Source: Candidatus Peregrinibacteria bacterium (GTDB taxonomy: Bacteria > Patescibacteriota > Gracilibacteria > UBA1369 > LOWO2-01-FULL-3). From it: 14,058 nt of DNA. The stretch covers positions 1 to 14,058 of the forward strand of contig JACROX010000089.1 in the NCBI GenBank assembly GCA_016214225.1. The letters run 5' to 3'. Made by a program: the position numbers and the translations under genes. The notes under the pieces were generated by a model. That model was not told where the DNA came from and searched no databases. It was given only the letters and a program-made list of their open reading frames with translations. This document shows positions 1 to 11,460 of this stretch, in pieces (position 1 is the first letter of the stretch; each line of letters opens with the position of its first letter).

Positions 1-73
1 AGCTTACGAACGAGCCGCGCAGCGAGGCGAACAATCTGGCTCCGCCAGTTGTGAGACGAAGCGAGCTTACAAA
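1..73 (+). repeat. Degenerate copy of the dispersed hairpin/tail repeat family
   Basis: GC-rich repeat-like sequence at the window edge. A hairpin is formed by CAATCTGGC (33-41 region) and GCCAGTTG around a TCC loop, with one T-T mismatch. It is followed by a tail GTGAGACGAAGCGAGC that resembles the GTGAGCGAAGCGAAC tail of the copies further downstream. AGCTTACGAA at 1-10 recurs as AGCTTACAAA at 64-73, so part of the unit may be repeated with a period of about 63 bases. The apparent GTG start of the downstream gene lies inside this repeat. Confidence 0.5.
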
Positions 74-1160
74 TAAGGAGCTTGTACGGCGAGGAGGAAG
101 CGACGAAGTTGACACAGCAAGACGCGTTTTTCAGAGATTCCCTAAAATTGACTTCGCGGTCGGAGGACAAGCGGTTATTGAGGGCGTGATGATGAGATCT
201 CCGGGACATATAACAACCGCCGTAAGAAAAACGGATGGAACAATCAAGGTTGATAAAAAAAAGTATGAGCCACTTATAAAAAGATACAATTTTTTAAATA
301 TTCCAATAGTCAGGGGAATAATCAATTTGTTTGAAATGATGGTTATAGGGACGAAAGCAATTAATTTTTCCGCGAATGAGTTTATGGCAAGCAATCCGGA
401 GGATTGCATACCAAGTAATGTGAGCGAGCATAGCGAGCGAACTCCCAAGAATACCGAAGGTGTTCTAGCCAGTAGCGTGAGCGAGCATAGCGAGCGAACT
501 CCGATTACTAAAAAACTTTTTGAATATTTCATGTTCGCGCTTTCTTTAATCTTCGCGCTTGCCTTCAGCATTTTGCTTTTCAAATTTATTCCGCTTTGGA
601 TTACAACTTATATCGATTCACACGTTACTTACGTGCACGAAAATTATTTTATTTTCAATTTGATTGACGGTTTGCTAAAGGCGCTGGTATTTCTCGCGTA
701 TATTTATATACTCACGCTTTTGCCAAGCTTTAAGCGGATTTTTGAATATCACGGAGCGGAACATAAATCCATTTTTACTTATGAGAACAATCTTGCTTTG
801 GAAGTTGAAAACGCAAAAAAACAAATTAGATTTCATCCGCGTTGCGGAACAAGCTTTATTTTAATTGTTTTTATGATAAGTATTTTGGCTTACATGTTTT
901 TACCTAAACAGGATTCATTTGCGCAGAATCTTGGGCTGAGAATTTTAGCTCTTCCGGTTATCGCCGGAATTTCATATGAATTATTAAGGCTCACCGCGAA
1001 ACACATGCAGAGCGTATTCTTCAAGCCGTTCATATTGCCGGGACTCGCGTTTCAAAGACTTACAACAAAAGAACCGGACGACAGCCAGCTCGAAGTGGGT
1101 CTTTCTTCACTGAAAGAGGCGTTGGTTTTGGAAGGAAGGCGACCCGAAGGGTTGCCCTAG
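51..1160 (+). CDS. yqhQ: DUF1385 (YqhQ-like) multi-pass membrane protein carrying translated repeat inserts
   Basis: An integral membrane protein of the DUF1385/YqhQ family, which is widespread and lacks a firmly established biochemical role. Seen directly: the family N-terminal motif GGQAVIEGVMMRSP (residues 39-52), EYHGAEHK (232-239), FHPRCGTSF (261-269) and GISYELLR (307-314), with hydrophobic segments near 156-188, 203-227, 268-288 and 298-318. At 369 residues it is longer than the usual family member of about 300. The excess is an internal insert (residues about 115-152) made of two translated copies of the dispersed repeat, placed in the linker between SANEF and the first hydrophobic segment, plus a repeat-derived end RRPEGLP. 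The start is uncertain: GTG at 51 is the only usual start codon before the GGQAV motif, it lies in repeat sequence, and the frame is open upstream to the window edge. No Shine-Dalgarno sequence is visible. Identity is confident; the first 25 or so residues are not. Confidence 0.88.
   Translation: MRRSELTNKELVRRGGSDEVDTARRVFQRFPKIDFAVGGQAVIEGVMMRSPGHITTAVRKTDGTIKVDKKKYEPLIKRYNFLNIPIVRGIINLFEMMVIGTKAINFSANEFMASNPEDCIPSNVSEHSERTPKNTEGVLASSVSEHSERTPITKKLFEYFMFALSLIFALAFSILLFKFIPLWITTYIDSHVTYVHENYFIFNLIDGLLKALVFLAYIYILTLLPSFKRIFEYHGAEHKSIFTYENNLALEVENAKKQIRFHPRCGTSFILIVFMISILAYMFLPKQDSFAQNLGLRILALPVIAGISYELLRLTAKHMQSVFFKPFILPGLAFQRLTTKEPDDSQLEVGLSSLKEALVLEGRRPEGLP
391..446 (+). repeat. Dispersed repeat copy inside yqhQ (in frame)
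   Basis: Stem GCAATCC, loop GGA, stem GGATTGC (391-407), then a spacer and the tail GTGAGCGAGCATAGCGAGCG followed by AACTCC. It is read in the yqhQ frame as NPEDCIPSNVSEHSERTP. The tail is identical to that of the adjacent copy at 448-502, while the stem is different yet still perfectly paired. Confidence 0.85.
448..502 (+). repeat. Second dispersed repeat copy inside yqhQ (in frame)
   Basis: Stem AGAATACC (448-455), loop GAA, stem GGTGTTCT (459-466). All eight pairs form, one as a T-G wobble. The spacer CTAGCCAGTAGC leads into the same tail as the preceding copy. Translated in frame as NTEGVLASSVSEHSERTP. The two copies together form a tandem insertion of about 38 codons. Confidence 0.85.
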
Positions 1161-1186
1161 CCAATAGCGTGAGCGAAGCGAACTCC
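1138..1186 (+). repeat. Dispersed repeat copy supplying the 3' end and stop codon of yqhQ
   Basis: Stem GGCGACCC (1138-1145), loop GAA, stem GGGTTGCC (1149-1156), then CTAGCCAATAGC and the tail GTGAGCGAAGCGAACTCC. The TAG inside the spacer (1158-1160) is the yqhQ stop codon, so the last residues RRPEGLP are repeat-encoded. The remainder fills most of the 41-base gap between the converging yqhQ and rplA. No run of T follows the hairpin on either strand, so a classical intrinsic terminator is not supported. Confidence 0.85.
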
Positions 1187-1201
1187 ATAGATGGTAATTT
1201 C

Positions 1202-1888
1202 TCAAAGACTCTTTAAATCGATACCAATCCCCGGTCCCATTGTAGAAGAAATAGAAATAGTGTTTAAATAAGTGCCTTTGATTGAACTTGGTTTTACTTC
1301 CGTTACGGCCTTAATTACCGCTTTCAAGTTTTCTTTCAATTTATCTTCATCAAAAGAAACTTTTCCGAATATACTATGCAAATTCGCTTCTTTATCCAAA
1401 CGAAGCTCAATCTTTCCTTGTTGCAATTCGTTGATTGTTTTTGTAACTTCAACCGTTACGGTCCCGCTTTTAGGGTTTGGCATAAGTCTTTTTTGTCCCA
1501 AAACTTTTGCGACTTTCGCAAGATCCTTCATTTGATCCGGAGTAGCTATTGCCACATCAAAATCCAACCATCCTTTTTCGATTTTTTCTATCAACTCACT
1601 AGTCCCGGCCTCTACTGCTCCGGCGGCCTTGGCCTCTTTTATTTTTTCTTCGCCGACAAAAGCGACAACTCTGACTTTTTTACCTGTTCCATGTGGAACA
1701 ACCACGGTTGTTCTGACATTTTGATCGGCCTGTTTTGGATCGACTCCAAGTTTAAAATGCACTTCACAGGTGGAATCAAATTTAGTCGTGGAAGTTTTTT
1801 TCAGCAGAGATATCGCTTCGTCCAATGTATAAAAAGGCTTATCTATAAGCTTTAAGGCCTCTCGATACTTTTTACCATGTTTTTTCAT
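1202..1888 (-). CDS. rplA: 50S ribosomal protein uL1
   Basis: Ribosomal protein L1, which forms the mobile L1 stalk on 23S rRNA near the E site and in many bacteria also represses its own operon by binding mRNA. The 228-residue length is normal. Seen: VRTTVVVPHGTGK (58-70), GQKRLMPNPKSGTVT (131-145), KEANLHSIFGK (167-177), and the C-terminal TMGPGIGID (216-224), all hallmark L1 segments. It follows rplK with a 58-base gap holding a possible RNA structure. It ends in TGA exactly where L1 proteins normally end, which shows TGA is a stop here. The start ATG at 1888 gives the usual MKKHGKKYRE beginning. There is no Shine-Dalgarno sequence; the upstream context is AACAAAAACAATT. rplJ and rplL, which usually follow, are absent, because yqhQ converges from the other side. 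Confidence 0.97.
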   Translation of the reverse strand: MKKHGKKYREALKLIDKPFYTLDEAISLLKKTSTTKFDSTCEVHFKLGVDPKQADQNVRTTVVVPHGTGKKVRVVAFVGEEKIKEAKAAGAVEAGTSELIEKIEKGWLDFDVAIATPDQMKDLAKVAKVLGQKRLMPNPKSGTVTVEVTKTINELQQGKIELRLDKEANLHSIFGKVSFDEDKLKENLKAVIKAVTEVKPSSIKGTYLNTISISSTMGPGIGIDLKSL

Positions 1889-1903
1889 AATTGTTTTTGT
1901 TAA

Positions 1904-1938
1904 GTGGTGTTAGCGCCCGCTATAGGACAGGCTCCCAC
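1904..1938 (-). promoter_or_regulatory. Possible structured leader of rplA between rplK and rplA
   Basis: Read on the minus strand, the rplK-rplA spacer can fold as three stacked helices: GUGG/CCAC, UGU/ACA and UAGC/GCUA around a GGGC loop. The 3' side is continuous and the two bulges (GAGCC, CCUA) lie on the 5' side. An asymmetric helix just ahead of rplA would suit a binding site for L1 itself, but I cannot match it to the known L1 target. The function is inference. Confidence 0.3.
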
Positions 1939-1946
1939 AAAATAAT

Positions 1947-2372
1947 TTATCCTTCAACTTTTACTCCCATGCTTCTCGCGGTGCCGGCAATAATTTTAAT
2001 GGCGGCATCAATATCGTTAGCGTTTAAATCAGCCATTTTTATTTTGGCGATTTCTTGCAATTGAGCTCTTGTTATTGTCCCAACTTTATCTTTATGAGGG
2101 ACTCCGGAACCTTTCGGGATATTCAACGCTTTTTTTATTAAAATCGCGGCGGGAGGACTTTTCAGTATAAATGTAAAACTCCTGTCATCAAAAACCGTTA
2201 ATTCAGCGGGAATAATGGTATCTCCCAATTCTTTGGTTTTAGCGTTAAATTGAGTGCAGAATTCCTGAATATTAACTCCGTGAGGACCTAAAGCGGTACC
2301 AACCGGAGGTGCCGGAGTGGCTTTCCCCGCGGGGATTTGCAACTTAACCATTGCTTTCACTTGCTTTGCCAT
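1947..2372 (-). CDS. rplK: 50S ribosomal protein uL11
   Basis: Ribosomal protein L11, which binds the GTPase-associated centre of 23S rRNA and takes part in factor-dependent steps of translation. The full length of 141 residues is canonical. Seen: [20 protein letters not shown] (10-29) with the proline-rich hinge region, [11 protein letters not shown] (29-39), FILKSPPAA (68-76), and the C-terminal signature [20 protein letters not shown] (115-134) ending MGVKVEG. The ATG at 2372 gives the standard N-terminus. It is the first gene after a strong promoter (-35 at 2428-2433, -10 at 2406-2411) and is followed by rplA. Upstream lies the 143-bp inverted repeat, so rplK is likely transcribed mainly from its own promoter. 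No Shine-Dalgarno is visible ahead of the start. Confidence 0.97.
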
Positions 2373-2405
2373 AAGGCTTTTTTTTACTTAATTAAAAACG
2401 AAGCC

Positions 2406-2433
2406 ATTCTACTGAAATAACAGCTGTTGTCAA
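2406..2433 (-). promoter_or_regulatory. Sigma-70-type promoter for rplK-rplA
   Basis: On the minus strand: TTGACA (2433-2428), a 16-base spacer, then TAGAAT (2411-2406). The -35 is a perfect consensus and the -10 has one mismatch. Predicted initiation is near 2399, giving a leader of about 27 bases to the rplK start. It begins only five bases past the end of the inverted repeat. Confidence 0.75.
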
Positions 2434-2437
2434 CATC

Positions 2438-2580
2438 AAGGAAAGGAGGCATAAGATTTTTTCACAAACCATGTATGACGTTGTGGACACTGCATGCAGT
2501 GTCCACATTCGGCGGAGCGTACACGTTAGCGCAGCCGAATCGTCATTGGTTTGTGAAAAAATCTTATGCTTCCTTTCCTT
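2438..2580. repeat. 143-bp inverted repeat with two inner hairpins (three-way-junction element)
   Basis: Outer arms 2438-2480 and 2541-2580 are near-perfect inverted copies: AAGGAAAGGAGGCATAAG on the left against AAGGAAAGGAAGCATAAG on the inverted right, continuing through GATTTTTTCACAAACCA to ATGACG. The only differences are one substitution and one 3-base gap. Between them lie a perfect 26-bp palindrome (2482-2507, half TGTGGACACTGCA) and a second hairpin closed by TTCGGC/GCCGAA (2508-2513 and 2534-2539), with a possible inner GCG/CGC pairing. The stop codon of the minus-strand unknown gene (TAA, 2581-2579) overlaps its right edge. No T-run follows the structure on the minus strand and I see no clear target-site duplication. 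It may be a MITE-like element, an RNA processing site or a transcription insulator; none is proved. Confidence 0.85.
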
Positions 2581-3436
2581 AAAATTCCATCGCCAACAAC
2601 TGGACCAAATTCTTAACTTGAGGATGATAGGTCTTGGGATAAGAAAATCCGTAAACAAGATTTTTAAATCTGACAACCAAAAAAGCCGTTTCCTGTCTCT
2701 TTGAATCGTTCAAATAAAAAGAAGCTTTCCCGAACTCATTCGTTTCATTTATCTCCGTATCAAGCCCTTCGGAAGCCCGTTTTTTAAGTGAACCATACAC
2801 GTCCTCAATTGAATTCAGCGGCCCTATTTTAAAAATATAAACTTTCAAAATGGGAGCATCTTGCGTCATTACGGCATTTTTAATCACCTGAACATCTTTT
2901 AAGTCGTCTATGTAAACAGTTTTAAATAAAAATCCGTTATGGGCTTCTTTCTCGATACTTACATTAACAAATCCGGCGCTTTTCAACTGATCCTCATTCA
3001 AATAAACGTATTGCGACATATCCACAAAATTCGCGGTTTCAAAATCCTTGCTTGAGTCCGTATTTTGATCGGAGTTTTGAGGAGTGGTTAAATTCTGCGA
3101 CTCCAAATCTTTAGAATCATATTTTATGGGAGATCCCTGCCCGGAATTTTCACCCAAAAAATTGTCGTTGTTAAGTGACATGGGATTTTGGCTTGTGGAA
3201 GGCGCGATTTTATTGACAGGAGGCTCATTTTGTAAATTGTTTTTTTGGATATTTTCAGTTCCTAAAACATTTGTAGAGAGATTTTGCGTCAAATCCAATT
3301 TTTCAGGAAGAGGAGATTTTGAATTTTCTGTTATTTGTAAATTCGCGGTTGGCAGATAATCCTTGGCAATAATTTGAACCACAACGGCAATAACTACGAC
3401 AGTCAAAATGAGGGTGAAAATTGTAAACTTCCGCAT
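2579..3436 (-). CDS. Membrane-anchored protein of unknown function between nusG and rplK
   Basis: I do not recognise this 285-residue protein. It has an N-terminal hydrophobic helix (residues 4-25, after MRKF), then a linker of about 105 residues (30-135) rich in Asn, Gln, Ser, Thr and Pro, and a probable folded domain (about 138-285) with alternating hydrophobic stretches such as LKVYIFKIGPL and TAFLVVRFKNLVYGFSYP. The topology suggests a single-pass anchor with the C-terminal domain outside the membrane. It lies on the same strand as secE-nusG, 59 bases after nusG, in the place where rplK normally follows directly. Its stop codon abuts the 143-bp inverted repeat. The start ATG at 3436 directly precedes the anchor; no Shine-Dalgarno is seen. 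Codon use looks like that of its neighbours. It may belong to the nusG transcript; a role there is not evident. Confidence 0.8.
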   Translation of the reverse strand: MRKFTIFTLILTVVVIAVVVQIIAKDYLPTANLQITENSKSPLPEKLDLTQNLSTNVLGTENIQKNNLQNEPPVNKIAPSTSQNPMSLNNDNFLGENSGQGSPIKYDSKDLESQNLTTPQNSDQNTDSSKDFETANFVDMSQYVYLNEDQLKSAGFVNVSIEKEAHNGFLFKTVYIDDLKDVQVIKNAVMTQDAPILKVYIFKIGPLNSIEDVYGSLKKRASEGLDTEINETNEFGKASFYLNDSKRQETAFLVVRFKNLVYGFSYPKTYHPQVKNLVQLLAMEF

Positions 3437-3495
3437 GCGACAAGATTAAAATAAAACAAGCCAAATTGCAAGGTGTCTCGAGATATTCTGAAAAA

Positions 3496-4041
3496 CTATT
3501 TTTTCCTAACCTGAGTGAAATCCAGCTCGACCGGAGTTTCTCTTCCAAAGATTGTTATCAGGACCTTAACTTTTCCTTTTTCTTCGTCTATCGCGCTGAT
3601 AATCCCTTCATAATTGGCAAAAGGACCGTCAAGTACGGTAACATGATCGTTCAAAGTAAAATCAATCTTAAATTTAGGCTCGGACTGCCCCATGTGTTTT
3701 TTAATAACCTTCCATTCTTCCGGTGAAACGGGGATTGGGATTGTACCTGAGCCGACAAATCCAGTTACATTCGGAGTATTTCTAACAACATACCAGCTAT
3801 CATCGGTAACGGTCATGTCAACAAGCACATATCCGGGGAAAATGCGTTTTTCTTCCGTAATCGGCTGACCTTTTTTAATGACTATTTGGGTTTCTTTAGG
3901 CACGACAACATCGAAAATCAAATCTTGCATTCCAAGAGATTCGATCCTCTGCTGGAGAGCTTCTTTTACGGCATCTTCGTAGCCGGAATACGTATGAATA
4001 ACATACCAATGCCTGCCCGTGTTTTCGGCTTGTCGTCCCAT
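3496..4041 (-). CDS. nusG: Transcription termination/antitermination factor NusG
   Basis: NusG binds the RNA polymerase clamp, affects pausing and processivity, and links transcription to Rho or to the ribosome. The 181-residue length is usual. The NGN domain shows HWYVIHTYSGYE (11-22), FPGYVLV (68-74) and VRNTPNVTGFVG (86-97). The KOW domain shows NDHVTVLDGPFANYEGIISA (131-150) and IFGRETPVELDFTQV (164-178). The start is two bases after the secE stop (TAAACATG on the minus strand), so the two genes are probably translationally coupled. It is followed not by rplK, as in the usual order, but by an unknown membrane-anchored gene. Confidence 0.97.
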   Translation of the reverse strand: MGRQAENTGRHWYVIHTYSGYEDAVKEALQQRIESLGMQDLIFDVVVPKETQIVIKKGQPITEEKRIFPGYVLVDMTVTDDSWYVVRNTPNVTGFVGSGTIPIPVSPEEWKVIKKHMGQSEPKFKIDFTLNDHVTVLDGPFANYEGIISAIDEEKGKVKVLITIFGRETPVELDFTQVRKK

Positions 4042-4043
4042 GT

Positions 4044-4241
4044 TTAAGGTCGGAGAGAAATTACATAATCAAAAAGAGTGCTGAACCCAAGATCGAGTAC
4101 TCCTAAAAAAACCGCGACAACAACACAAAAGATAAGTACAATAATCGTAAGCTTTATTGCCTGTTTTCTCGTCAGCCAAGTCACTTTTCCAAGTTCCTCC
4201 AGACTGCCTTTTATATAGTTTGTTACTACGTTTTCTTTCAT
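4044..4241 (-). CDS. secE: Preprotein translocase subunit SecE
   Basis: SecE is the small subunit that clamps SecY in the protein-translocation channel. This 65-residue form is the short single-TM type found in most bacteria. Seen: the conserved amphipathic region EELGKVTWLTRKQA (15-28) and one hydrophobic helix (about 30-52, LTIIVLIFCVVVAVFLGVL). Its position directly before nusG is the canonical arrangement and confirms the call. It is the first gene of the minus-strand operon, expressed from an extended -10 promoter about 45-75 bases upstream. A tiny GC hairpin followed by five T lies in its leader. No Shine-Dalgarno is visible. Confidence 0.95.
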   Translation of the reverse strand: MKENVVTNYIKGSLEELGKVTWLTRKQAIKLTIIVLIFCVVVAVFLGVLDLGFSTLFDYVISLRP

Positions 4242-4254
4242 AATTAGGGTAATT

Positions 4255-4272
4255 TTAAAAAGCCCGCGGCTT
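4255..4272 (-). terminator. Attenuator-like hairpin in the secE leader
   Basis: On the minus strand AAGCC-GCG-GGCTT is followed directly by TTT and an AT-rich stretch. It lies between the predicted start of transcription (about 4279) and the secE start codon (4241). A five-pair stem is short for an intrinsic terminator, so it might attenuate weakly or have no function. Confidence 0.3.
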
Positions 4273-4285
4273 GCTTTACGGTCGA

Positions 4286-4315
4286 ACTATAACATTTACC
4301 ATTTCCAAAAAGCAA
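4286..4315 (-). promoter_or_regulatory. Extended -10 promoter for secE-nusG
   Basis: On the minus strand: TTGCTT (4315-4310), an 18-base spacer, then TATAGT (4291-4286) preceded by TGT, giving an extended -10 of the TGn type. The predicted start of transcription is near 4279. It overlaps the oppositely directed promoter of the pilin-PKD operon. Confidence 0.55.
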
Positions 4316-4331
4316 GTATTTCTGGTAAAAT
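4303..4331 (+). promoter_or_regulatory. Extended -10 promoter for the pilin-PKD operon
   Basis: TGG followed by TAAAAT (4326-4331) makes an extended -10 with five of six consensus bases in the hexamer. The -35 candidate TTCCAA (4303-4308, 17-base spacer) is poor. The predicted start is near 4338, with a leader of roughly 17 bases before the ATG at 4355. Confidence 0.45.
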
Positions 4332-4354
4332 ATAGAGAAGAAAAACAAAAACCA

Positions 4355-5347
4355 ATGAATCTCAGATTAAAAAATGGGTTAAGAATTATACTGCAATTTA
4401 TGTTATTGATGATAGCGATATTTACGATACTGCATTTTCAGGCATTCGCGGTCGATAAATCTTTGCCTATTCCAAGCGCGGAATATGAGAAATATAATAT
4501 TCCAAAACCGCCTGACAAAGAGGGACAATTGATAGTAAAAGATCTTGTGCTGGGCGGACTTGCTTATGTTAAAGCCATTGTTGTTGCGATAGGAATTTTA
4601 ATGATTTCTCTTTTAGGATTGCGCTTGCTCATGGCGTATGGGGAAGAGGAAGAGATAAGCAAAGCAAGGAGAGGACTAATTTACGCTTTGATTGCTTTTG
4701 TAATTATAAGCATGTCGCAGGATTTCGGAAAAATCTTTGACATGGGCGAAAAAAGTCTTCTCCAAAGTCCGCAGAATATTTTGAACAGAGTTAAACTTTT
4801 CGACAAAGAAATCGAAATTTTCATGACATTTATAAAATATGTAATAGGCGCTTATGCCGGCATAATGATTCTTCGCTACGGCATAGGCCTTGTAACGGCA
4901 GGTGGGAATGAAGAAGAAGCCACAAAAAACAAAAAAGGAATCATGTATGCCATGGGGGGACTTTTAATGACGTATTTCAGCCAGACTTTTATCGACAAAG
5001 TCTTTTATAAAATCAACAAGGATGCTTATTACTCGACAGGTGTTCATCCGGGGGTGGATGTTAAAGCGGGAGTTGAACAAATTTCTGGAATAACAAATAT
5101 GGTGATGCAATTTGTGGCTCCGATAGCTCTTGTAATGTTTATAGTAACAGCGATTATGTACGCGACGGCGGCGGGAAAAGACGAACAGGTGGAAAAAGCG
5201 AAAAGGCTCCTCACCGCGACAATTATTGGAGTCGTAATAATTTACGGAGCGTTCGCCGTGGTGAGTACGATTATCGCGAGCAAACTGGGAAGTATAGATC
5301 CAAATTTAATCAGCAAGGCTCCAGCCGCAGGCTGGTTGCCTATTTAG
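4355..5347 (+). CDS. Membrane protein with three tandem VirB2/TrbC-like pilin units (operon gene 1)
   Basis: A 330-residue membrane protein. A signal-like segment (residues 7-32, ending FQAFA) is followed by three repeats of one pattern: hydrophobic helix, a short glycine/acidic turn, a basic KA(K/R)R-type patch and a second hydrophobic helix. The turns are MAYGEEEEISKARRG (93-107), TAGGNEEEATKNKKG (181-195) and TAAGKDEQVEKAKRL (271-285), within units at about 62-121, 150-210 and 243-309. This is the layout of VirB2/TrbC-like T4SS pilins, here fused in series. The ATG at 4355 was chosen because it begins the signal sequence; the in-frame ATG at 4271 lies upstream of the predicted promoter start. 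The last residues APAAGWLPI and the stop fall in a divergent copy of the dispersed repeat. No conjugation motor is near, so the role is inferred: a membrane scaffold or subunit of a surface structure. Confidence 0.8.
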   Translation: MNLRLKNGLRIILQFMLLMIAIFTILHFQAFAVDKSLPIPSAEYEKYNIPKPPDKEGQLIVKDLVLGGLAYVKAIVVAIGILMISLLGLRLLMAYGEEEEISKARRGLIYALIAFVIISMSQDFGKIFDMGEKSLLQSPQNILNRVKLFDKEIEIFMTFIKYVIGAYAGIMILRYGIGLVTAGGNEEEATKNKKGIMYAMGGLLMTYFSQTFIDKVFYKINKDAYYSTGVHPGVDVKAGVEQISGITNMVMQFVAPIALVMFIVTAIMYATAAGKDEQVEKAKRLLTATIIGVVIIYGAFAVVSTIIASKLGSIDPNLISKAPAAGWLPI

Positions 5348-5378
5348 TAATGTCCGCCGTAGGTGGACTTCCACACTC
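5316..5378 (+). repeat. Divergent dispersed repeat copy at the junction of operon genes 1 and 2
   Basis: First hairpin CCAGCC-GCA-GGCTGG (5321-5335), then TTGCCTATTTAGTAATG, then a second hairpin TCCGCC-GTA-GGTGGA (5353-5367) and the tail CTTCCACACTC. The order hairpin, TTGCCTA spacer, hairpin, (G)AACTCC-like tail matches the copy at 6538-6595. The TAG in the spacer (5345-5347) is the stop of gene 1, as in the copy ending yqhQ. Confidence 0.6.
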
Positions 5379-5379
5379 A

Positions 5380-6537
5380 ATGAAAAATAAAAAAACATTA
5401 AAAAACATTAAGTCTAAGCGACCCGAAGGGTTGCCAGCAAGTAGCCTGAGCGGAGCGAAGTCTAAGCGACCCGAAGGGTTGCCAGCAAGTAGCCTGAGCG
5501 GAGCGAAGTCCCTCCTATGGCTTTTTCTAGCGATAAACTTGGCTTTGACTGTTCAAATGGCGGTGGCCTTCGCGGCTCCATCGGCCTCGGGAGGAATGAA
5601 TCCGATAGATCTTATTCAAAATATAGGAAAAGGAACCGGTTTGCCGGATTTTAACGCCACGGGACAGCATCCCGACGCCCCTCCGGATTACGCGCAACCG
5701 GGCGTGGGAACTTTAACAAGTCCGATTTTTTTCGCCATTGATTTATTCCGTTATTTTATAAGCGGAATTGCTTTAATCGTGATCACAATAGAGTCAATAA
5801 AACTTATTTCTTTCAATAACGATGAAGTTGTTGGAAAAGCAAAATCGACTTTAATCATGGCGGTAATAGGGCTTTTGATAATACAAATCGCCGATGTCGC
5901 CGTGAAAAAAATGTTCTTTGGACAAAGCGGAGATATACTCGAAACCGCCACAACCGCGCAAATTTACGGTGAAGAAACCGTAAAACAATTTAGAGGAATA
6001 ATGGGATTTATTGAAATTTTGCTTGGAGTTATCGCGGTGCTTGTAATTGTAATTCGCGGACTTGTTTTAATGACGGGCGGAGGCGAAGAAGAATCCATGA
6101 CAAAGGCAAAAAATCACGTTCTATACGCAGTCGTTGGATTATTTGTGATAATTTTATCGGATGTTGTCATCCGTGGAGTAATATTCCCTGAAGCCGGTAA
6201 ACAACTGCCAAACACGCAAAAAGCGGCATTCATAATTGTATCGGTAATCAATTACGTTTCGGGATTCGTTGCGATCATAGCATTTTTGGCTTTGTTCTAC
6301 GCGGGATATTATTATGTTGTTTCAGCTGGTAACGACGAAGCGAATGAAAAAGTGAAGAAAATCATTACTGGGGCGATAATCTCACTGGCGCTTGCTTTAG
6401 GCGCTTTCGCCATTGTGAACACATTGATAAAATTTGAGCCTGCCAAGCAATCCGAAGGATTGCCAGCCAGTAGCGTGAGCGAAGCCAAGTCAATAGTTGC
6501 AATAAGACAAACTAAACAATATAATCAAACAAGCTAA
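5380..6537 (+). CDS. Second membrane protein with three tandem pilin-like units and repeat-derived inserts (operon gene 2)
   Basis: A 385-residue paralogue of the preceding gene. Pilin-like units occur at about 116-176, 205-265 and 284-351, with turns ISFNNDEVVGKAKS (143-156), TGGGEEESMTKAKN (232-245) and SAGNDEANEKVKK (315-327), each followed by a hydrophobic helix. The N-terminus is MKNKKTLKNI, then two exact copies of a 16-residue repeat-encoded peptide (KSKRPEGLPASSLSGA), then KSLLWLFLAINLALTVQM and a likely cleavage region at AFA-APSASG. The dispersed element has thus entered between the basic and hydrophobic parts of a signal peptide without breaking the frame. A further copy near the C-terminus gives KQSEGLPASSVSEAKS (357-371 region), followed by a short polar end. 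The ATG at 5380 is preferred over 5350, which lies in repeat sequence. The function is presumably shared with gene 1. Confidence 0.8.
   Translation: MKNKKTLKNIKSKRPEGLPASSLSGAKSKRPEGLPASSLSGAKSLLWLFLAINLALTVQMAVAFAAPSASGGMNPIDLIQNIGKGTGLPDFNATGQHPDAPPDYAQPGVGTLTSPIFFAIDLFRYFISGIALIVITIESIKLISFNNDEVVGKAKSTLIMAVIGLLIIQIADVAVKKMFFGQSGDILETATTAQIYGEETVKQFRGIMGFIEILLGVIAVLVIVIRGLVLMTGGGEEESMTKAKNHVLYAVVGLFVIILSDVVIRGVIFPEAGKQLPNTQKAAFIIVSVINYVSGFVAIIAFLALFYAGYYYVVSAGNDEANEKVKKIITGAIISLALALGAFAIVNTLIKFEPAKQSEGLPASSVSEAKSIVAIRQTKQYNQTS
5411..5510 (+). repeat. Tandem pair of dispersed repeats, 48-bp period, inside operon gene 2
   Basis: Two identical 48-bp units (5411-5458 and 5459-5506), with four further bases AGTC continuing the period. 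Each holds the hairpin GCGACCC-GAA-GGGTTGC (5418-5434 in the first), the spacer CAGCAAGTAGC and the tail CTGAGCGGAGCGAAGTC. The period is a multiple of three and adds 16 codons per unit. Sequence identity indicates a recent duplication or a recent arrival. Confidence 0.92.
6447..6491 (+). repeat. Dispersed repeat copy in the 3' part of operon gene 2 (in frame)
   Basis: Stem GCAATCC, loop GAA, stem GGATTGC (6447-6463), spacer CAGCCAGTAGC and tail GTGAGCGAAGCCAAGTC. It is read in the same frame as the N-terminal copies, giving SEGLPASSVSEAKS. Relative to the 5411 copies the stem carries a compensatory T-A for C-G change. Confidence 0.87.
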
Positions 6538-6595
6538 GGCCACCCGAAGGGTTGCCTAGCCATGAGTGTGAGCCCGCCACGGGCGGGCGAACTCC
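6538..6595 (+). repeat. Dispersed repeat copy filling the gap between operon genes 2 and 3
   Basis: Stem GGCCACCC-GAA-GGGTTGCC (6538-6556, one mismatch), TAGCCATGAGT, then the tail GTGAGC-CCCGCCACGGGCGGG-CGAACTCC, in which a 6-bp hairpin replaces the middle of the usual tail. It starts immediately after the TAA of gene 2 (6535-6537) and makes up almost the whole 72-base spacer before the start at 6610. The ATG at 6562 is part of the repeat and unlikely to be a real start. Confidence 0.87.
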
Positions 6596-6609
6596 AACCT
6601 CTCATCCCT

Positions 6610-9600
6610 ATGACAACACTAAAAAGAATCCTCATTCTGGCGGCTGTAATAATTTCTTTTTCAGCGACAACACTTGCCGTTCATGCTTATAGTTTGGATG
6701 AGTTCAAACAAGATGTTGGAAATTTAATTTCAACCGGACAAAATCAAGGCCCATCATTTACGCAATATTCCACTCAAGGCTTACAGCTTGAGAAAAAAGG
6801 CTTAAATGACACGTTGACTCAATCTTCAGACATAAAGGAATTTGTCATAAAAATAGTAAATTTCGCGCTCGGATTTTTGGGACTTCTGGCGATAATAATT
6901 GTAATTTACGGCGGTGTTCTTTATGTAACCGCGGCCGGAGAAGACGAGGGAACTCAGAAAGGCAAGAAAGCGATTACTTACGCCTTGATAGGATTGATTA
7001 TCATTATAGCGTCATACGCCATTGTAAATACGGTAATACAAGGCGCGAGTGTTGGAACCGAAGGTGAGAAAAAAACAACAATAGGGGCGAATTCCGCTCC
7101 AAGTTTCAACGCGGCGGCCATCCAAGTTAACACTCTCGCGAAAGAAATTTACACGGGTTTTGTGCTTTTTGGCGAGACAATGGAGGAAATAAAAAACATA
7201 GTGAACGACGCGAATAAATCATCTTTGAGTTACTTAAATGATGGAGCTGTAAATTTTGTGTCTAAAAATAATATTGTAAATTTTCTTTATAGCGTAAAAG
7301 AAAAACTTTTAAACATAAGATCGAAACTCGAACAATTTGCCGGAGTTTATAAATTTTCGGGAACTTATCTTAAGGTCAGTGATTTGGTTAGACAGGCTGA
7401 TGATTATATAGATGAAATTCAAAGTTTAAATGAAACTGTAAATGCGAAAATAAGTACGGATGGAGCTACTCTCACGCAGTGCGAGGAACCGCCAGCGGAA
7501 GAAGAGAAAAAAGATTGCCACGAATATACAAAAGGGCTTTTTGAGAAATGGACCGCCATAAAAAAAGACTTGATATCAAATGACGATAAAAGTCCAAAAT
7601 CCCTCAATTACCTCGTTGAACCGATGAAAAACGATTACGTCAAAAGCGCGATTGGAACGCTTCAAAAAATAAAAGACTTGAAAGATTCGTTTTTCTCGAT
7701 AGAAAAAAATGACCCGATTGACGCGTTATATTCCACAATGATGAACATTTACGGTTATGATCCTCAAAGTCCAAACGGTCCGTATGAAGCCAACTCTTTC
7801 CTATATGAAATTTCACAAATTAAAGCCGGAGATAATCAAGACGCCATTTCCAAAGCCGCGGATTTATTGATTCAGGCGATAAAAAAACAAATTGAACTTC
7901 AAGACGCGTTAACGAAAGTTCAGAGCGTCGAAGCGCATTTGAAAGCGAATGTTGTTGAAGGCAACGCGCCGCTTGTAGTGGTTTTTGACGTTTTGGATTC
8001 AATCGATCCCGCCGGAGGCGCCATACTCGATAGCAATATCATTTGGGACAACATAACGGGAAAAGCGACTTATGACGGCAAAAATGAAGTGGATTTAAGC
8101 CAAGCGGTTGAATGTATTATGCCGAGCGACAAACAATTCAGTCCGAAAGTTTTCGGACCGGCATTCAGGCAATGCACATTCCATTATCCGGGGACATACA
8201 TCGCGACGGTTAAAGTAAAATCCAGAGATCAGGGGAAATATACAACGGGGATGAGCAGTCTTGTCATAAAAGTAAAACCGCCGACAACAAAAATTAATTT
8301 AAAAATTAAAGCGGGGAACAAAAACATTCCGGTAATGTCATATTACGATAATGGCATTTTGAAACTGGACAGAGATTATATTCCCGTAACATTGGCGGAA
8401 GCCAAAAACGGGCTCGTGTTTGACGCCACGGAAACAACAAAAACGGAAAATGTAACAAATTTCAAATGGGATTTTGGAAACGGAAAAACCATTGATGGAG
8501 ATGATACGTACGGTCAACAGACAATGTCATTTGATAATGAAGGACGGTACAGTATAAATCTGCAGGTAATGAATAAGCTTGGGGAGCTTTCCGCTAAAAC
8601 ATTTATATTGGATGCCAGGAAAGTTGCCGCGAGAATTCAAATAACTCCGGCTGAAAAGTTATTTATAGGGAGTCCCGTGATTATAGATGGCGGCATGTCT
8701 TCGGCTTCCGGCGGCAATATAAAATCTTATGAATGGAAGCTTTACCAAATCGCTCAAGGAGAAACAAAACCCATAGACTTGGGCGGAGATGTAAACAAAA
8801 TATCGTTCATGTATAAATTCAAAGAGCCCGGAAAATACACGGTTAGTCTCAAGGTCTCAAGCGAACTTGAATCCGTTGACGCGGAGCCGTACACGTTCAC
8901 CGTTCAATCGAAATCTCCTGTTGCTCTTTTCGAAAATAATGTAAGCAGGCCGTCAGAGCCGGGAATTGTTAATTTTGACGCGAGCAAAAGTTTCGATCCG
9001 GATGGAATTAATAAATCTCTTGTATATAAATGGACGCTTACTCCGGATTCAAATAACGGAGAAGTTTGGGGATTTATAAACGGCACAACTTCGGAAAGTA
9101 AAAATCCCATTATAAAATTTAAGAAAAAAGGAAATTATCAAGTCGGATTAAAAGTTACGGATTCATCAACGGTTGGAGTCGGTATTTTGGAAGAATCGGG
9201 AGAAACGGCAAAAAATATGGAAATAAAAAATATTTTAAACATAAGCTGGGACGAGAACCAAGTGGTTACGTCAATATTGAACAAAGAAGGAAAAGCGCCG
9301 ATGGATTTCAAGATAAAGAGCGACAATGCCATCGCTTATGAAATCGATTTCGGGGATGGTGAAAAAAGTTCGGGAGACATGAAGCTTACAAAAACGATTC
9401 CCCACACTTATTTGGCTGGGGGGAAATACAGCGTAAAAGTTACGGTTTACGATTCGGAAGATAATGACAATTCGATTGAAAAAAGAATTTTCATCGGAGG
9501 AGGGGATTCTCCTCTCGCGAAAGCGGCTATTTTTATTAACGGAGTGCAGATTTTGGATGAAAAAGAAACAATAATCGCACACAAAAAAGACATTATAACT

Positions 9601-11460
9601 TTTGACGGAAGCGAATCAAAAAATCTCGACGGTACCGGAAAAAATTTAAGATACAATTGGGATTTTGGCAACGAAGATAAAAGTTCGAATAAAACGGCGA
9701 CATATTCATACAAGGAATTAAGCCCCAAAGATGCCGGATACTACACCGCGAAACTTCAGGTGTATGACAAAGACGATCCTAAAAAAATAAGTTCCGATGA
9801 AGTAAAAATAAAAGTTATAAACAGTCCCCCGACATTTTCGTCTATTCAAGTCATTCCTGACACGGCGAATAAAGACATGGTAACTCCGGTGAATGTTGAC
9901 GTGAAAGTTTTTGGCGACGAGGACAAAGACGGAAGCATAACGCAATATAAATGGTGGTATTACGATTTGGATGATCCGTCGGAACCTTTGGGATTGCAAA
10001 TTACAACCGGTCCGACGGCGAAAATAATTATCGGAACTCACGGCAAAGAAAACAAAGAAGTGACCTATGCTTTTGGTCTTGAAGTAACGGATTCCGACAA
10101 CATAAGCGTTAAGAGCGAAGATATTTTAAATAAAGAACAGATTCCTAAAATTAAAGTAACGAATGGTCCGAATGTCCTGCCATCGGCCAAATTCAGCGTA
10201 AGCCAGACAAAGGTTTTTGTTAATGATAAAGTTGTGTTCACAAGTTCATCGAAAGATCCGGACGGGAAAATAAAACAATATATTTGGGATTTTGACGGAG
10301 ATGGATTTTTCAATGATAAGCCGACAGAGCTGTCCACGGTGGAACATACGTACGCGAAAAAGAATTTAAGCGGATATGATGTCAGATTAAAAGTTGTGGA
10401 CGATAAAGCGGGAGAAGCGGTTTCCGATCCGATAAAAATTTACATTGATAGTTTATCGAAACCGCCCGTGGCCGCGTTCACTTTTAAAGTCGTGGAAGGC
10501 AGCGGCGGCAAGAAAGTGAAATTTATAAATAACTCAACAGCGGACAGCGAAGGAGGCGCGAAAATAGTTAAATACATTTGGGATTTTGACACGCAATCAA
10601 ACCTTCCCACGGCCGATAGTGACGGTAACGGCAAAAAAGATGATGATGCGGATTCAACGGATAAAGAACCGGAGAGATTATACACGGAGTCAAACGCATA
10701 CAATGTGAAATTAACGGTAACGGACGATCAGGGTGGAACGAATTCCGTAACAAATCCGGTAACTGTTCCATTGGCGAATCCGCCAAAAGCGGCGTTTACT
10801 TATGAAGTGAAAGGGGACAGTGTTGCGTTTAAAAACAACTCCGAAGCCGATGCTCAAAAAGGCGCGAAAATAATTAAATATATTTGGGATTTCAGTACTT
10901 TGGTTGACATGGATGGTGATGGCAAAACAGATAACGATAAAGATTCCACGGAAAAAGAACCGACATATAAATATCCCGTTGCCGGAACATATAAAGTAAA
11001 ACTTACGGTAATTGACGATCAAGGAGGAGAAACAAGCGTCGTGAACGATGTTAAATTTATATCTGGCGTTGGTAGCGGCACAGGCGCGATTGATATAACA
11101 ACAGGCCCTTCCGGCCAAATTATTCTTCCTCAAAATTCAGGAAATCTATTGGCGGTTTTACATACAAACCCGACGCAAGGTAAAGACGGAATTATTTATT
11201 TGACTGGAAATGTTGGAGCGGTTACTTTTGATTTCAGTAAATCAACAGGCTCGATTTCAGAATATATATTTGATAAAAATATCTATTTTGATACCGATGG
11301 TAATACGGTAAAAGATGATGATGTTGATTTTAAAACAAATTTACCGGGCACATGGAAAACAAATTTTGATAAGAGTTGGGGAAAGATAGTCGTCAGACTT
11401 ACGGTGGTTGATATTTATGGAAATACAAATTCAATAAATCAAGAAATTAAATTTAAATAA
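6610..11460 (+). CDS. Giant pilin-PKD fusion protein, 1616 residues (operon gene 3)
   Basis: A very large exported or membrane-anchored protein. Residues 5-26 form a signal sequence (ILILAAVIISFSATTLAVHA). One pilin-like unit follows: hydrophobic helix 78-108, turn TAAGEDEGTQKGKKA (107-121), helix 121-145. A mainly helical region (about 157-435) contains two cysteines (CEEPPAEEEKKDC). From about 436 to the end there are ten or eleven beta-rich PKD-like domains. The clearest show FKWDFGNG, YEIDFGDGE, YNWDFGNE, YIWDFDGDG and YIWDFST with G-x-Y-x-V-x-L-x-V ends. Boundaries are roughly 436, 559, 671, 768, 876, 967, 1073, 1188, 1284, 1390 and 1488. The last three contain acidic DxDGxG-type loops (1336-1350, 1433-1447, 1561-1573) that look calcium-binding. 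The ATG at 6610 is preferred over 6562, which lies in a repeat. It probably forms a rod-like extracellular module carried by a pilin-type membrane anchor. Confidence 0.82.
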   Translation: MTTLKRILILAAVIISFSATTLAVHAYSLDEFKQDVGNLISTGQNQGPSFTQYSTQGLQLEKKGLNDTLTQSSDIKEFVIKIVNFALGFLGLLAIIIVIYGGVLYVTAAGEDEGTQKGKKAITYALIGLIIIIASYAIVNTVIQGASVGTEGEKKTTIGANSAPSFNAAAIQVNTLAKEIYTGFVLFGETMEEIKNIVNDANKSSLSYLNDGAVNFVSKNNIVNFLYSVKEKLLNIRSKLEQFAGVYKFSGTYLKVSDLVRQADDYIDEIQSLNETVNAKISTDGATLTQCEEPPAEEEKKDCHEYTKGLFEKWTAIKKDLISNDDKSPKSLNYLVEPMKNDYVKSAIGTLQKIKDLKDSFFSIEKNDPIDALYSTMMNIYGYDPQSPNGPYEANSFLYEISQIKAGDNQDAISKAADLLIQAIKKQIELQDALTKVQSVEAHLKANVVEGNAPLVVVFDVLDSIDPAGGAILDSNIIWDNITGKATYDGKNEVDLSQAVECIMPSDKQFSPKVFGPAFRQCTFHYPGTYIATVKVKSRDQGKYTTGMSSLVIKVKPPTTKINLKIKAGNKNIPVMSYYDNGILKLDRDYIPVTLAEAKNGLVFDATETTKTENVTNFKWDFGNGKTIDGDDTYGQQTMSFDNEGRYSINLQVMNKLGELSAKTFILDARKVAARIQITPAEKLFIGSPVIIDGGMSSASGGNIKSYEWKLYQIAQGETKPIDLGGDVNKISFMYKFKEPGKYTVSLKVSSELESVDAEPYTFTVQSKSPVALFENNVSRPSEPGIVNFDASKSFDPDGINKSLVYKWTLTPDSNNGEVWGFINGTTSESKNPIIKFKKKGNYQVGLKVTDSSTVGVGILEESGETAKNMEIKNILNISWDENQVVTSILNKEGKAPMDFKIKSDNAIAYEIDFGDGEKSSGDMKLTKTIPHTYLAGGKYSVKVTVYDSEDNDNSIEKRIFIGGGDSPLAKAAIFINGVQILDEKETIIAHKKDIITFDGSESKNLDGTGKNLRYNWDFGNEDKSSNKTATYSYKELSPKDAGYYTAKLQVYDKDDPKKISSDEVKIKVINSPPTFSSIQVIPDTANKDMVTPVNVDVKVFGDEDKDGSITQYKWWYYDLDDPSEPLGLQITTGPTAKIIIGTHGKENKEVTYAFGLEVTDSDNISVKSEDILNKEQIPKIKVTNGPNVLPSAKFSVSQTKVFVNDKVVFTSSSKDPDGKIKQYIWDFDGDGFFNDKPTELSTVEHTYAKKNLSGYDVRLKVVDDKAGEAVSDPIKIYIDSLSKPPVAAFTFKVVEGSGGKKVKFINNSTADSEGGAKIVKYIWDFDTQSNLPTADSDGNGKKDDDADSTDKEPERLYTESNAYNVKLTVTDDQGGTNSVTNPVTVPLANPPKAAFTYEVKGDSVAFKNNSEADAQKGAKIIKYIWDFSTLVDMDGDGKTDNDKDSTEKEPTYKYPVAGTYKVKLTVIDDQGGETSVVNDVKFISGVGSGTGAIDITTGPSGQIILPQNSGNLLAVLHTNPTQGKDGIIYLTGNVGAVTFDFSKSTGSISEYIFDKNIYFDTDGNTVKDDDVDFKTNLPGTWKTNFDKSWGKIVVRLTVVDIYGNTNSINQEIKFK

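Follow-up and report, generated by a model that had tools for sequence, protein, structure and literature searches.

A short two-hairpin repeat that appears to have spread into the genes of one Candidatus Peregrinibacteria lineage

The stretch of DNA analysed here (the window, 14,058 nucleotides) is contig JACROX010000089.1 of the Candidatus Peregrinibacteria assembly GCA_016214225.1, referred to below as contig C86 of genome G000 (an uncultured bacterium; 795,301 bases in 121 contigs, 84% complete). It carries several copies of a short GC-rich element with two hairpins, some of which are translated as part of the proteins in which they lie. With a probability of roughly 0.8, this element is a non-autonomous small repeat, which was moved in trans, multiplied to ~ 77 detected places in one lineage, and survives within genes as selected, near-neutral copies. 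The original prediction, made from the letters of the window, was that of an element inserting in frame into unrelated proteins in the manner of the Rickettsia palindromic elements, and this is borne out by copies in conserved genes throughout the genome and by empty sites in relatives.

Architecture of the element and its copies in the window

The short form measures 48 nt (i.e. 16 codons) and consists of AAGC, a first hairpin (stem RACCC/GGGTT, loop GAA), the linker GCTAGCYARTAGC, GTGA, a second hairpin (GC GAA GC) and GAACTCC. Longer forms lengthen either stem, which gives a range of 44–72 nt over 77 copies. Both hairpins covary: in an alignment of 42 copies, 94.8% of 504 cells are paired, 41 cells show changes on both sides compared to 8.3 in shuffles, and pairing falls to 23–42% when the structures are slid along the alignment. 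The outer pair of hairpin 2 adjoins two G.A mismatches and is changed on both sides in 7 of the 42 copies. Hairpin 1 is rich in G-U pairs and, since each of these would turn into an A.C mismatch on the opposite strand, the fold presumably belongs to this strand and not to its complement. A crude search found GNA loops in hairpin 1 of 48 and in hairpin 2 of 27 of the 77 copies, which is a weak sign of a fold at the DNA level; as RNA, the 48-mer is marginally stabler than shuffles (z -1.52). The 42-copy alignment contains no terminal inverted repeats, its ends AAGC and CTCC not being inverted repeats.

A covariance model (R1) was built on these 42 copies, which include the seven of the window, so that the E-values of those 42 are not independent. 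When the window was scored with R1 (filters off), seven of the at least eight plus-oriented copies originally proposed were recovered, all on the plus strand (E 4e-18 to 6e-14), but not the one at 5316 (E 1.2). Support that does not depend on the model comes from the exact 15-mer tail, found 13 times in the genome, and from the hairpin 1 pattern (at most one mismatch), found 28 times; either pattern, when reversed, occurs 0 times.

The first three copies are found in yqhQ (DUF1385; 3..1160, plus strand; PF07136, E 3.9e-76), a gene truncated at its 5' end by the contig start, and DUF1385/YqhQ homologues named Candidatus Peregrinibacteria occur among the matches listed. Two of these copies lie in tandem, one base apart, at 389..445 (57 nt; 65.2 bits, E 6e-16) and 447..502 (56 nt; 73.5 bits, E 4.1e-18), while the third, at 1137..1186 (68.1 bits, E 1e-16), provides the stop codon of the gene (..GRRPEGLP*), the open reading frame (ORF) at 51-1160 terminating within it. 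The second host gene (5350..6537, plus strand; PF18895, E 2.6e-18) encodes a protein of the type IV secretion system (T4SS) pilin family, and by inspection its true start is perhaps the ATG at 5380. A tandem pair of 48-nt copies opens with 5416..5463 (63.7 bits, E 1.5e-15), in the N-terminal region ahead of a hydrophobic segment, and continues with 5464..5511 (65.9 bits, E 3.8e-16). A further 48-nt copy lies in frame in the C-terminal region (6445..6492; 57.5 bits, E 6e-14), and one of 59 nt lies between this gene and the next (6537..6595; 60.2 bits, E 1.2e-14). The plus-strand stretch 5315..5371, within which an upstream pilin-family ORF (4271-5347) terminates, scores 6.6 bits (E 1.2), on par with chance matches; it resembles a long-stem variant of hairpin 1 and may be a decayed copy, albeit an unproven one.

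Five copies are indeed translated, two in the YqhQ protein (389, 447) and three in the pilin-family protein (5416, 5464, 6445). That all five share one frame is true of the tail, but not of the hairpin 1 half of the first copy, which is read in another frame, the tail frame being regained through a length change (57 nt). Similarly, the uniform plus orientation is valid for the window but not for the genome, where 44 of the 77 copies are plus and 33 are minus.

Copies within genes, empty sites and reading frames

Across the genome, R1 has 80 matches at E <= 0.5, 77 of them at E <= 0.0102, which amounts to ~ 1 detected copy per 10 kb. The other three (C71:5113, C18:243 and C40:5391; E > 0.0102) were excluded from the context counts; the match at C71:5113 sits in a phosphomannomutase gene and appears real, and that at C40:5391 is probably due to chance. 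Gene context was judged around the copies only (43 merged stretches, 185,439 of the 795,301 bases), using gene calls from our own dicodon script, which need an open frame, and not from a standard gene finder. On this basis 44 of the 77 copies lie entirely within genes, of which 21 run along the gene and 23 against it: 36 are located deep inside (17 along, 19 against), and another 8 are inside but at most 10 codons from an end. Of the others, 12 straddle a gene end and 21 lie between genes. Predicted genes make up 88% of the sampled DNA, so that genic copies are depleted, though still the majority.

All 20 host proteins that were scanned match Pfam families. They include (the finer names being in part what we take them to be) TypA, LepA, HflX, D-Ala-D-Ala ligase (Ddl), two Mur ligases, MutS and RNase H, as well as a PurN-type formyltransferase, a PfkB kinase, an HD hydrolase, a transaldolase, a riboflavin kinase and a phosphomannomutase, the latter carrying a copy left out of the counts. 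Two copies each are present in TypA, LepA and the PfkB protein. In three prepilin-like genes (C77:4898-4956, C77:2862-2920 and C39:7280-7347; loci L014, L026 and L036) the element is antisense and ends just before the glycine preceding the hydrophobic segment. The N_methyl motif was confirmed in the two of these hosts that were scanned, with the insert stopping directly ahead of it, and the third, unscanned, looks alike. Prepilin peptidase removes the leader of such proteins, and the insert, being located in the leader, would be cleaved off along with it.

Among the non-genic copies, no pair of same-strand neighbours resembles the halves of one gene (by eye), which fits the purging of frame-breaking insertions. 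The same observation speaks against the idea that ribosomes skip the intragenic copies, or that the copies are removed, such that the peptides never appear in the proteins. Some yeast mitochondria have short bypassing elements that do offer a parallel in size, in their GC-rich hairpins and in their location in core genes. The intragenic copies, however, stay in frame and free of stops, which would be needless under skipping (even if our gene calls themselves demand an open frame), and skipping or removal is hardly credible here.

Comparison with orthologues reveals empty sites. LepA of this genome has 644 residues, and both of its inserts are lacking in 25 out of 25 family orthologues. In TypA (640 residues), insert 1 is absent from 23 of 23 relatives and insert 2 from all 22 informative ones, the latter being a clean gain of 16 codons. 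At the DNA level the gain at insert 2 is exactly 48 nt, between flanks (KS|ENG) found in 15 of the 21 relatives compared, and at this one DNA-resolved site there is no target duplication beyond a single C that can be assigned to either side. PurN is exactly 19 residues longer than the protein of the relative G002, around a 56-nt copy.

Conservation of the peptides in orthologues, which the original prediction had named as evidence against insertion, was not observed for YqhQ: they occur in none of the 59 homologues aligned, out of 119 listed (besides the query) and 7,991 found. A crude motif test over the 119 listed homologues gave two matches, P0002 and P0101, of four letters each. The tandem copies in YqhQ occupy a linker of variable length, and this, together with the short similar stretch in P0002, is what could be said for the peptides being ancient or functional linker motifs of their host proteins rather than insertions. 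Such motifs would not explain why it is the DNA itself that is conserved, in both orientations and in several registers, nor why 21 of the 77 copies lie between genes and the TypA, LepA and PurN orthologues do without the segment. With the antisense copies and empty sites having largely refuted it already, the linker-motif explanation retains only a minimal likelihood.

Known structures point in the same direction as the orthologues: PDB homologues of HflX, MutS, phosphomannomutase, RNase H, TypA and LepA are without the insert. The alignment of Ddl to PDB entries is ambiguous, that of MurD stops short of the insert, and for YqhQ no PDB relative was found. An AlphaFold2 model of TypA, built from 22 sequences and of modest quality (mean predicted local distance difference test score, pLDDT, of 64.3, with other low-confidence stretches), gives both inserts a pLDDT below 50 and predicts that they are unstructured between beta strands.

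The bias to one frame, which had been put forward as an argument for insertion, turns out to be weak. In the consensus, stops fall in the remaining two forward frames (TAG and TGA in one, TAG in the other), so that a single forward frame is forced. One of three forward and two of three reverse frames are open, three in all, which is no more than shuffles of this base composition have. When registers are anchored at the 3' end, four are used genome-wide: same-strand 0 (13 copies) and 2 (8 copies), and antisense 2 (14 copies) and 0 (9 copies). Of the 77 copies, just 8 are open in the same-strand register that goes unused. Forty of the 77, among them C73:5681-5728 and other intergenic copies, have antisense register 1 open, but this register is used by 0 of the 23 antisense intragenic copies, where ~ 6 of 23 would be expected from its openness (by our own arithmetic). 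This hints at a filter, which may act on the peptide or else on the target's codon phase, and it is the one sign of possible selection for a soluble peptide.

Distribution in relatives and neighbouring repeats

In 40 relatives, R1 matched in only three genomes (G002 with one strong match, G017 with three weak ones and G031 with a borderline one). Scoring 352 genomes of the class other than G000 gave matches at E <= 1e-4 in at least four (G002, G017, G042 and G044), which is a lower bound as at most 15 candidates per genome were scored. A fuller look gave three matches each in G042, G044 and G017, one in G002, and none in G012, G043 and G045; the hosts of in-frame copies in G002 and G044 are shikimate dehydrogenase and a polysaccharide pyruvyl transferase. 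A scan of named genome contigs returned one record, JACRIB010000024.1 (Candidatus Peregrinibacteria), whose match coordinates equal those of contig C78 of G042, a genome placed in one tool-defined family with G000. Another contig of G042, C94 (L122), is 99.8–100% identical over ~ 3 kb to contig C85 (L017) of G000 itself, which is probably a result of cross-binning and renders G042 doubtful as an independent carrier. A 57-bp difference within this pair was considered as a polymorphic insertion and rejected, consisting of unrelated sequence beside T-runs. Searching 192 genomes of the class for the pattern GAGCGAAGCGAR was uninformative, the reversed control being nearly the same word, and two exact patterns gave 0 matches in viral contigs. 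The expansion is lineage-limited.

The weak matches in G017 follow a consensus of their own, with a similar hairpin 1, a linker of the type CTAATAAAAA and a hairpin 2 that is paired throughout (CGTTCGC GAA GCGAACACC). Allowing two mismatches, this pattern occurs at 16 places in G017, where the reversed pattern occurs at 0, and 11 of the 16 fetched places show a clear upstream hairpin by eye. Over 30 genomes of the family, the pattern has matches in eight (counting the copies of G000 itself), and its reverse occurs once each in G015 and G016. Six host proteins scanned in G017 all have a Pfam match: a radical SAM protein, PriA, a D-Ala ligase family protein, a glycosyltransferase, an EngA-type GTPase and a methyltransferase. 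The G017 repeat is thus a sister family in another genus.

Other repeats accompany the element in G000. A second family, marked by the word TTTTTCAGAG(A/G)TT and by arms of the kind GGAAGCGACGAAGTTGACACAGCAA, is present at 90-143 of the window and at C34:5138 and 5219, C71:6101 and 6183, C40:9934 and C73:4429, and a stretch related to it lies directly 3' of some copies of the element. At 1-80 the window is GC-rich and repeat-like (words GTGAGACGAAGCGAGC and GCAGCGAGGCGAAC), and R1 does not score this part as a copy. Between two minus-strand genes, at 2438-2580, there is a 143-bp inverted repeat with 34-nt arms (97% complementary, 75 nt apart), the loop of which holds further palindromes; it appears to be a separate element resembling a miniature inverted-repeat transposable element (MITE). 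The window also holds an ORF of 1,632 residues (6562-11460) in which a T4SS-pilin-type membrane domain is joined to many PKD domains; a PKD protein of 699 residues follows it.

Possible mode of spread, known systems and significance

A role in transcripts is conceivable at first sight. The repeat could be an RNA device (a transcript end or stability element) that spread through regulatory selection, with the intragenic copies being accidental, considering that some copies lie between convergent genes or provide stop codons (e.g. that of yqhQ) and that the second repeat trails some of them. With 44 of 77 copies in genes, though, 23 of these are antisense, so that their mRNA lacks the covarying strand; furthermore, an Rfam search of the window gave no match, and the element was seen in just 3 of 40 relatives. 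An RNA device is therefore a very improbable origin. In fact, the antisense orientation of about half of the intragenic copies, taken together with the G-U pairs of hairpin 1, points away from a role in the host mRNA.

For the reading as a repeat moved in trans, the following course of events is proposed. The element would move as its foldable strand, probably single-stranded DNA being the form that is copied or moved, and the mover would be an enzyme acting in trans. Insertion would be roughly blind to genes; the dinucleotide 5' of the element is CC in 26 of the 77 copies, compared to 3.4 expected. Selection would then purge the insertions that break a frame and retain intragenic copies with a net length that is a multiple of three, a stop-free frame and a landing place in loops, linkers, tails or removable leaders, the peptide probably being near-neutral once in place. 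The lack of both a terminal inverted repeat and a duplication of more than one base (at the one site resolved at the DNA level) sets the element apart from a typical MITE and would be a better fit to HUH-type single-strand hairpin chemistry.

Several results weigh against this interpretation. The 48-mer folded as DNA is not unusually stable (z -0.85), and the depletion of genic copies fits purging but equally a target preference. No movement was observed, and the site shared by the near-identical contigs C94 and C85 is occupied in both. In PurN there are 57 extra nt against a copy of 56 nt, one base more than the copy accounts for. Finally, no candidate enzyme was found: the Y1 transposase family (PF01797), the sole enzyme family searched for, has 0 matches in G000, which is 84% complete.

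Of the known systems, the Rickettsia palindromic elements (also present in Wolbachia) are described in the consulted parts of PMC2229807, PMC3767692 and PMC10969869 as dispersed palindromic repeats with stop-free frames that lie in frame in conserved genes and whose mobility enzyme is unknown, with a size of ~ 105–150 bp, long stem-loops and 12-bp terminal inverted repeats. Residence in conserved genes is shared by the present element (44 of 77 copies), which, compared by description, differs in its 48-bp short form (44–72 nt), its two separate hairpins, the lack of a terminal inverted repeat and its very distant host. ERIC, YPAL and Correia/NEMIS, according to the parts of PMC2229807 consulted, are likewise non-autonomous repeats with stop-free frames fused in frame with genes, ~ 100–200 bp long, most of which have terminal inverted repeats and duplicate their target. 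Here no such repeats were seen, nor was a target duplication at the sites resolved (TypA insert 2 and PurN).

The GTAG/CGTC repetitive extragenic palindromes (REPs) are hairpins of 20–40 bp in uneven, lineage-specific families, some of them in frame in genes or providing stop codons, and the phyla named do not include Patescibacteria (both as given in the consulted parts of PMC3733652). It is conceivable that the element is such a REP, moved by a REP-associated Y1 tyrosine transposase (RAYT) that was lost or is missing from the assembly. GTAG REPs share with it the short hairpins, the intragenic copies and the stop codons given to neighbours (PMC3733652, same parts), GTAG precedes hairpin 2 in 20 of the 77 copies (and occurs anywhere in 27), and G002, with its one copy of the element, has a Y1 match, albeit with an in-frame stop. 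The tag is not conserved, however, as 57 copies are without it before hairpin 2 and CGTC is found at an end in 0 of 77, and the plan of two hairpins plus a linker differs as well. Moreover, PF01797 is found in 4 of 30 family genomes and, among the carriers, solely in G002, with no match in G017, G042 and G044 in addition to G000, which makes a REP of this type improbable. It follows that the element acts like the Rickettsia palindromic elements and intragenic REPs, yet is assigned to neither here, because neither the size and architecture of the former nor the GTAG/CGTC tags of the latter were found. Among the open-licence papers listed (titles and the starts of abstracts), none describes such an element for Peregrinibacteria, the candidate phyla radiation or Patescibacteria, and none combines 'Peregrinibacteria' with 'repetitive element'; as only open-licence papers were covered, an earlier description elsewhere is possible.

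In-frame selfish DNA is already known from Rickettsia and, in the form of REPs, from scattered other phyla, and the question of how such DNA survives within genes is a long-standing one. In the present case, a small genome from the candidate phyla radiation has more than half of its copies within genes, and relatives of the same family supply the empty sites. These form many natural before/after pairs in which to ask how conserved proteins accommodate an arbitrary insertion of ~ 15–24 residues. For annotators they are a warning that such loops are probably DNA parasites and not domains.

A bolder and rather unlikely proposal is that the element represents a separate class of mobile, protein-coding DNA within the candidate phyla radiation, with a two-hairpin, 16-codon short form and a spread through single-stranded DNA that would involve neither terminal inverted repeats, nor target duplication, nor a RAYT. 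Its two sister families would have expanded separately in two genera, with the peptide being filtered at the protein level. If this were true, core GTPases, ligases and repair enzymes would steadily keep gaining loops.

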